Assembly: GCA_018828585.1 (NCBI GenBank)
Contig: JAHJVW010000023.1
Location: forward strand, 1 to 64,000
Source: Bacteroidota bacterium
Lineage (GTDB): Bacteria; Bacteroidota; Bacteroidia; Sphingobacteriales; Sphingobacteriaceae
DNA length: 64,000 bases
Reading direction: 5' to 3'
Part shown: positions 62,470-62,782 of the stretch, piece by piece
How positions within the stretch are numbered: the first letter of the stretch is position 1
Layout of the letters: each line of letters begins with the position of its first letter
Position numbers and translations under genes: made by a program
The notes under the pieces: generated by a model
What the model was told of the DNA's origin: nothing
Database searches by the model: none
The model's input: only the letters and a program-made list of their open reading frames with translations

Positions 62470-62569
62470 ATTTATAAAGAAGTGGCGAGAGATTAGGCTC
62501 ACAGACCCACTGGCAACCCTTAGCATAAAAGAGAAGGTGCCAATTCCTACCCGAAAGGGAACTATAAAT
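62470..62569 (+). ncRNA. S-box (SAM-I class) riboswitch
   Basis: The closing helix P1 is ATTTATA (62470-62476) with TATAAAT (62563-62569). P2 is AGTGG / CCACT. The S-box core follows: ACCCACTGGCAACCC (about 62505-62519), AGGTGCCAATTCCTACCC (about 62535-62552). GGCAACC and GGTGCCAATTCC are hallmarks of SAM-I clan riboswitches. It senses S-adenosylmethionine and lowers expression of methionine genes. It lies ahead of a short leader ORF and metY. Confidence 0.9.
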
Positions 62570-62578
62570 TTTAAGGAC

Positions 62579-62689
62579 ATGGAAAAAAACAAAAAAACAT
62601 CATCAAGAATTGCAACCTTTTTAAAAGGTGAATCAGTTTTAACGCTACGCTTTGCTACCGCTTGTTGTATGTGTTATTGCATGAGCTAA
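62579..62689 (+). CDS. Short leader peptide with a C-terminal Cys/Met cluster
   Basis: ATG 62579 to TAA 62687-62689, 36 residues. The N-terminal 19 residues are basic (MEKNKKTSSR). The C-terminal part is TLRFATACCMCYCMS: four Cys in seven residues, with two Met. Such a cluster in a 5' leader of a sulfur gene suggests a ribosome-stalling sensor for cysteine or methionine (as in known Cys-codon attenuators of other phyla). An 8-base stem begins three bases after the stop. I propose leader translation as a second control, downstream of the S-box; this is inference. Confidence 0.6.
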   Translation: MEKNKKTSSRIATFLKGESVLTLRFATACCMCYCMS

Positions 62690-62691
62690 TC

Positions 62692-62718
62692 TCTAAGTAA
62701 ATTCAATTTCTACTTAGA
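62692..62718 (+). promoter_or_regulatory. Hairpin after the leader-peptide stop
   Basis: TCTAAGTA (62692-62699) / TACTTAGA (62711-62718), loop of 11 bases. No T run follows, so it is not a simple terminator; it could affect ribosome release or metY translation initiation 65 bp downstream. Confidence 0.4.
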
Positions 62719-62782
62719 AAGCATTCCAATTAATTTACAAAAACCCCAAACTAGTATTTATATCAGTTTAAAAACATTCAAT

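Follow-up and report, generated by a model that had tools for sequence, protein, structure and literature searches.

Leader peptides with runs of cysteine codons are known from Actinobacteria. They were predicted, without terminators, ahead of cys operons or cbs in Mycobacterium, Propionibacterium acnes and Bifidobacterium (Seliverstov et al. 2005, PMC1262725). Polycysteine leaderless small ORFs were later tested in mycobacteria, according to the citation of Canestrari et al. 2020 in PMC13236596. Rho has been proposed for the Mycobacterium cases. SAM-I riboswitches usually act through a terminator or a sequestered gene start. The Mg2+ leader of mgtA carries a proline-codon ORF. The tandem attenuators of Salmonella mgtCBR bring two inputs into one mRNA leader via short ORFs (PMC3641672). 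In M. tuberculosis, the B12 riboswitches of ppe2 and metE act jointly with translated uORFs; the ppe2 leader is riboswitch-controlled and works by termination-reinitiation (PMC11260477). The SAM-II riboswitch of S. meliloti metA regulates translation initiation, at a distance from the functional start (PMC9373788). Leader-peptide attenuation has also been suggested for Flavobacterium amino-acid operons (PMC9723704).

We analyzed a 64,000-nt stretch of a Bacteroidota genome (hereafter the window), in which an S-box is followed by a short ORF and then by metY. Like the actinobacterial Cys leaders, this ORF is short, carries a Cys run near its stop, lies ahead of sulfur genes and has no obvious terminator (PMC1262725). 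The actinobacterial leaders precede cys operons or cbs, whereas here a SAM riboswitch lies upstream and metY downstream, in another phylum. The mycobacterial leaders are described as leaderless in the source citing them, whereas here the transcript has at least 102 nt of S-box before the ORF. Judged from sequence, the Bacteroidota leader would work like an actinobacterial Cys leader without being a member of that group. In contrast to the usual SAM-I riboswitch, the first start codon after P1 is that of the leader peptide and not that of the regulated gene. The M. tuberculosis B12 cases have another ligand and no codon-scarcity run, and the termination-reinitiation of ppe2 (PMC11260477) contrasts with a median gap of 117 nt between leader and metY. 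The mgtCBR and mgtA leaders use unrelated sensors and codons and have no separate SAM aptamer. The S. meliloti metA riboswitch is of the SAM-II class and has no Cys leader peptide (PMC9373788). We found no literature description of a SAM-I riboswitch and a Cys leader in tandem, in Bacteroidota or elsewhere, subscription journals lying mostly outside the coverage; the tandem appears not to have been described before.

A SAM-I riboswitch and a Cys/Met-rich ORF precede metY

The features of the locus are given in Table 1. The S-box match covered the full length of the RF00162 model (positions 1-108 of 108), with a score well above the gathering score of 44.4 bits. It was also matched by a locally built covariance model, R1, at 92.1 bits, the E-values from this model being rough. 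Its placement upstream of methionine and sulfur genes fits the SAM-I class. By these matches the element is a SAM-I riboswitch, and SAM binding is predicted. No Rfam family besides SAM was matched in the leader.

Table 1. Features of the metY leader region in the window
Feature	Position	Strand	Evidence and remarks
Candidate Bacteroidota-type promoter	62384..62416	+	TTTG (62384-62387), 21 nt, TATCTTCG (62409-62416); by-eye reading
SAM-I riboswitch aptamer (S-box), all-A/U P1 (TTTATA/TATAAA)	62469..62570	+	RF00162, 69.3 bits, E 4e-14
Leader-peptide ORF, 36 codons, MEKNKKTSSRIATFLKGESVLTLRFATACCMCYCMS	62579..62689	+	ATG 62579, TAA 62689; position conserved in 113/114 S-box/metY loci
Cys/Met codon cluster TGT TGT ATG TGT TAT TGC ATG, directly before stop	62663..62683	+	Cys/Met positional profile, 82 non-redundant leaders
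8-bp hairpin just after leader stop, A/U-rich, without U-tract behind	62692..62718	+	MFE
Leader-metY spacer, C-rich, G-poor, candidate Rho-loading stretch	62690..62782	+	Composition vs S-box-to-metH spacers
metY, O-acetylhomoserine/O-acetylserine sulfhydrylase	62783..64000	+	TIGR01326; continues beyond window end

The product of metY matched TIGR01326 (OAH/OAS sulfhydrylase) with 645 bits against a cut-off of 495. metX and hom lie directly 3' of metY, outside the window (gene order taken from locus L339), forming a metY-metX-hom operon. The candidate promoter, for which the Bacteroidota consensus is TTTG/TAnnTTTG, was found in the sister locus L004 too.

The leader ATG lies 8 nt after the end of the RF00162 match. 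An in-frame GTG is located upstream at 62537, inside the aptamer. The ATG was taken as the start, because its place relative to the aptamer is kept in relatives. The codon cluster encodes C29 C30 M31 C32 Y33 C34 M35, and the peptide ends in ACCMCYCMS. Among 1165 small ORFs on both strands of the 64-kb window, this leader had the richest Cys/Met tail, with six Cys and Met in its last ten residues; the next best had four. A Pfam and NCBIfam search with the window's leader peptide gave no family. The other four genomic copies of TGYTGYATGTGY were considered as leader ORFs and rejected, as none is one. The first-pass annotation had proposed an S-box, a 36-codon ORF with four Cys and two Met clustered at its end, and a sulfhydrylase gene downstream, adding that Cys leaders are known in other phyla. 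The three elements were confirmed here, and the remark on other phyla holds for Actinobacteria (PMC1262725).

The leader ORF is tied to the S-box of metY across families

A homology search with the peptide alone returned close relatives only, and most matches under E 1 were chance. Because the drifting peptide gave mostly chance matches, the S-box was used as the search anchor. S-box loci were gathered independently of the leader by searching the genus (18 genomes), the family and the class with RF00162, and the best 80 MetY-encoding named genome loci were taken as a further sample. Aptamer ends were set by a local covariance model in 297 loci, which were then analyzed. A true metY was defined by over 70% identity, and genes were classed by their similarity to a single reference per class.

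An S-box preceded a true metY in 114 loci, some of which represent the same genome twice. A leader ATG ORF followed the aptamer in 113 of them, and 112 of these ORFs started 2-15 nt after the aptamer (mode 7-9). Leader length ranged from 13 to 52 codons. At least three Cys/Met were present in the last 12 residues of 104 of the 113 leaders, and at least three Cys in 85. The non-redundant leaders (under 60% identity) numbered 82. Because the genomes are unequally related, the loci cannot be counted as separate events; the use of 82 non-redundant leaders and the spread over several families lessen the kinship bias but do not remove it.

The first-pass annotation had suggested aligning Sphingobacteriaceae leaders as a check, and the ORF passed it. 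Within the genus, an S-box stood before metY, metX or hom in 17 loci. Every one of them kept an ORF of 33-38 codons just after P1, at a constant distance, and 16 of the 17 kept the in-frame Cys/Met tail; the remaining one, L263, has a degenerate MRMR tail. The pattern extended throughout Sphingobacteriaceae and into other families. Outside the family, Cys-rich leaders were carried by loci titled Cyclobacteriaceae, Flammeovirgaceae, Haliscomenobacteraceae, Saprospiraceae and Cytophagales, and by four of the five other class members in which an S-box precedes metY. The two elements, their order, spacing and reading frame are conserved.

The leader start was tied to P1 (SD 2.7 nt), whereas the S-box-to-metY distance was loose (SD 45 nt). 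The only S-box/metY locus without a leader was L187 (G019). There, the ATG of metY itself lies 11 nt after the aptamer, at the leader's place.

We applied a strict test, which demanded a start within 15 nt, at least 25 codons and four or more Cys/Met among the final 12 residues. It was passed by 66 of the 82 non-redundant leaders, whereas Markov shuffles gave a mean of 0.02. None of 94 metH S-boxes from the same genomes and families passed, although metH and metY loci differ in spacer length. The genome of the window has such a second S-box ahead of metH, without a Cys leader ORF. No Cys leader was found behind five metE S-boxes. Among the best 80 MetY-encoding loci, 11 had no S-box within 700 nt upstream. 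Ten S-box-less metY loci had enough upstream DNA, and none contained a Cys-rich window (at least four Cys in ten codons, any frame, 500 nt upstream). Therefore, the leader tends to accompany the S-box.

The tail carries an in-frame cysteine signal

In the 82 non-redundant leaders, Cys accounted for 30-57% of each of the last eight codons and stayed below 15% at all earlier positions. Met reached up to 33% at position -6. TGY was counted 343 times in frame in the tails, versus 133 and 29 times in the other two frames, and ATG 141 times versus 12 and 8. Both TGT and TGC were used for the tail Cys and interchanged. Among 29 pairs of close leaders, nonsynonymous change was 15% at tail Cys codons and 31% at body codons; the pairs share sequences, and the difference should be read as a tendency. 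The free length, the drifting body and the kept Cys codons fit a peptide whose end codons matter and whose sequence does not. Leader-peptide attenuators have a conserved codon cluster near the stop and keep these codons while the peptide drifts, and both traits were found here.

The evolutionary pattern strongly suggests translation and Cys sensing. The leader ORF is almost certainly translated, and it very likely senses Cys/Met codons. The first-pass proposal of a codon-scarcity sensor stacked on a SAM sensor was supported, also by the tie between leader start and P1; it is put more exactly as a Cys (plus Met) sensor, in which Met is secondary.

Three other readings of the tail were weighed. 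If the conserved feature were an RNA element, such as a hairpin or a protein or sRNA site, the ORF would be incidental. Lineage-shared nucleotide motifs would suit this, namely the 8-mer CGAATGYG in 16 of the 82 leaders and CGAATGCGNTAGTCGTC, which runs across the leader stop codon in Sphingobacterium. However, the frame is kept from the P1-tied ATG through bodies of variable length, the Cys signal lies in one frame, TGT and TGC interchange, and SAM was the only Rfam family matched, making this reading very improbable. A small, stable, functional protein would agree with the positional conservation of an ORF of up to 52 codons, but its sequence is unconserved outside the tail, its length varies from 13 codons upward and the window's peptide has no Pfam or NCBIfam match; we regard this reading as extremely improbable. 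Alternatively, the leader might work through its nascent peptide, by arrest or by Cys binding a metal or oxidant, instead of through tRNA-Cys supply. The Cys residues are located where the chain would be near the peptidyl-transferase center, and Cys supply leaves the Arg-Met-Arg variants unexplained. On the other hand, Cys number and spacing vary freely (CMCCCC, CCMCYCM, SCCCCCCFN), the body is unconserved, and the linked genes are metY, metX and hom rather than metal or redox genes. A nascent-peptide mechanism is thus improbable, and codon sensing is the preferred reading.

Terminators are not enriched behind metY S-boxes

Within 110 nt behind metY S-boxes, terminator-like hairpins were no commoner than by chance (0.18 versus 0.21 expected). 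They were enriched behind metH S-boxes (0.46 versus 0.20 expected), suggesting that metY S-boxes use a different expression platform. Behind the S-boxes of SusC-like genes the value was 0.82 versus 0.45 expected. Any terminator-like site between leader tail and metY was found in 19 of 82 loci. A classical intrinsic-terminator (trp/his) attenuator was rejected, as no conserved U-tract terminator with a mutually exclusive antiterminator overlapping the codon run was found.

Across loci, structure was evident in the 60 nt that follow the leader stop (mean z -1.38) but not in the 60 nt ahead of metY (+0.2), so that the metY start does not look sequestered. Alternative pairing of the Cys cluster with downstream sequence was not universal (mean z -0.17 +/- 0.12). 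With mismatched loci as the control, long-range pairing among cluster, body, aptamer, spacer and metY start gave no general signal. The whole leader of the window folded no better than shuffles. In Mucilaginibacter, a post-stop hairpin (ACACGT...ACGTGT) and a second hairpin were visible in the alignment, and the RNAalifold consensus was weak. The conserved platform amounts to no more than "usually a hairpin" after the stop.

The stop-to-metY spacers exceeded S-box-to-metH spacers in C-G (p 8e-16) and in YC density (p 1e-7). This C-rich composition is compatible with Rho, and also with G-poor leaders in general.

The S-box and the Cys leader might be two independent attenuators in series, the S-box acting alone, e.g. 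on transcription or RNA stability, and the closeness of ATG and P1 reflecting compact packing. The S-box loci of SusC-like TonB-dependent receptors (TBDT) have the two units separate, with a terminator behind the aptamer and then a 24-codon ORF over a second terminator. At metY, however, terminators are not enriched behind the S-boxes themselves, the ATG keeps a very tight distance from P1, and in L187 the ATG of metY takes the place of the leader start. We consider independent attenuators unlikely.

A proposed serial two-sensor model for metY-metX-hom

Since the leader start is tied to P1 and metY S-boxes have no terminator excess, we infer an action of SAM on the start of leader translation. 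Counted from the leader ATG, the 3' arm of P1 occupies about -16 to -10, which is within the stretch covered by an initiating ribosome. P1 adjoins the leader start region and leaves the ATG itself uncovered, which counts against taking SAM gating as proven. The spacing and the L187 swap together make it fairly probable that the S-box acts on leader initiation.

We propose a serial model for the metY-metX-hom leader, SAM being read first and Cys/Met codons second, and on the sequence evidence we consider it likely. At high SAM, the S-box would be bound and P1 closed, so that a helix would hold the A/U-rich stretch directly preceding the leader ATG, and ribosomes would start poorly on the leader ORF. 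At low SAM, the leader would be translated, and the ribosome would meet the run of Cys and some Met codons just before the stop. When charged tRNA-Cys (or tRNA-Met) is scarce, it would stall at the run; otherwise it would finish and leave. The state of the ribosome, stalled near the stop or absent, would then decide whether RNA polymerase or the message proceeds into metY. As the form of output, we favor factor-dependent (Rho-type) attenuation within the C-rich spacer, where stalled ribosomes would shield the transcript. In this form, metY expression would be highest when SAM and Cys are both low. Rho-type output is put forward tentatively, as a possibility on the doubtful side. The complete proposition, an AND-like serial gate widespread in Bacteroidota and working without an intrinsic terminator, in which SAM decides the entry of ribosomes to the leader and Cys/Met tRNA charging decides their fate, is about evenly balanced between right and wrong.

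A Cys input would also make metabolic sense. The annotation of TIGR01326 members is O-acetylhomoserine sulfhydrylase/cysteine synthase, CBS-like and CysE/CysK-like genes are present in the genome, and a neighboring gene belongs to the cystathionine gamma-synthase/lyase family. Therefore, a Cys input is plausible. The homocysteine made by MetY could feed cysteine besides methionine, and a Cys input beside the SAM input would be sensible.

If true, the model would show how a phylum in which few attenuators have been studied links its methionine/SAM status with the cysteine supply, at the gene through which sulfide enters both. It would moreover be a conserved case from nature in which a riboswitch gates a leader peptide, and it bears on ribosome-mediated attenuation where intrinsic terminators are missing. 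Over 80 distinct small ORFs with a predictable function are added, and the single one searched belongs to no Pfam or NCBIfam family.

Variant leaders, related S-box loci and neighboring genes

Divergent natural variants number in the dozens (Cys-rich, Arg-Met-Arg, very short, missing) and open the logic to direct tests. In Sphingobacterium, the leaders have few Cys and an Arg-Met-Arg end. Spirosoma leaders have only 13-15 codons, with Cys-Met-Pro. From these tails, a Cys run is not strictly required, and the Spirosoma and Sphingobacterium leaders are variants that any full model must explain. The very short leaders of the four Spirosoma loci (L118, L123, L149, L163), three of which overlap an inverted repeat rich in GC, represent another form of the arrangement.

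Some metX-linked leaders have the ORF without the Cys cluster. Short ORFs with few or no Cys also lie a few nt after the S-box before a cysH-like gene (L253, L256, L257) and before metZ/CGS-like genes (L215, L217). Given these ORFs, the position of the leader may be the more general feature and the Cys run the narrower one. In L182 (G015), by-eye reading found that the leader and metX are separated by a stretch that resembles both ends of metY, as though most of metY had been lost and the leader kept.

In the g14 genomes, S-boxes precede a SusC-like TonB-dependent receptor (L037, L040, L041, L045, L050, L052, L056, L060, L061). An intrinsic terminator lies right behind the aptamer and is followed by the 24-codon ORF, which ends in ..FRMRMPC or similar. 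This ORF and the second intrinsic terminator (CCTGTTAA..TTAACAGGCTTTTT) overlap, in the region 100-200 nt behind the S-box. The SusC-like loci would be a second, cleaner tandem of S-box and predicted leader attenuator.

The 8-mer CGAATGYG encodes Arg-Met-Cys/Arg. It was found in metY leaders such as L137, L152, L168, L177 and L270, and in the SusC-like loci too. Its density was 1.7 per kb in leaders versus 0.016 per kb in nearby, mostly coding, sequence. The Arg codon preceding Met was CGA in 19 of 26 cases.

The neighbor of the metY leader region in the window is a gene of the cystathionine gamma-synthase/lyase family (60536-61648). A toxin-antitoxin-like pair, DUF6364 and PIN_3, lies between this gene and the metY promoter (61699-62354). 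The sister locus L004 joins the gamma-synthase/lyase-like gene and the metY promoter without the pair, suggesting that the pair is an insertion.
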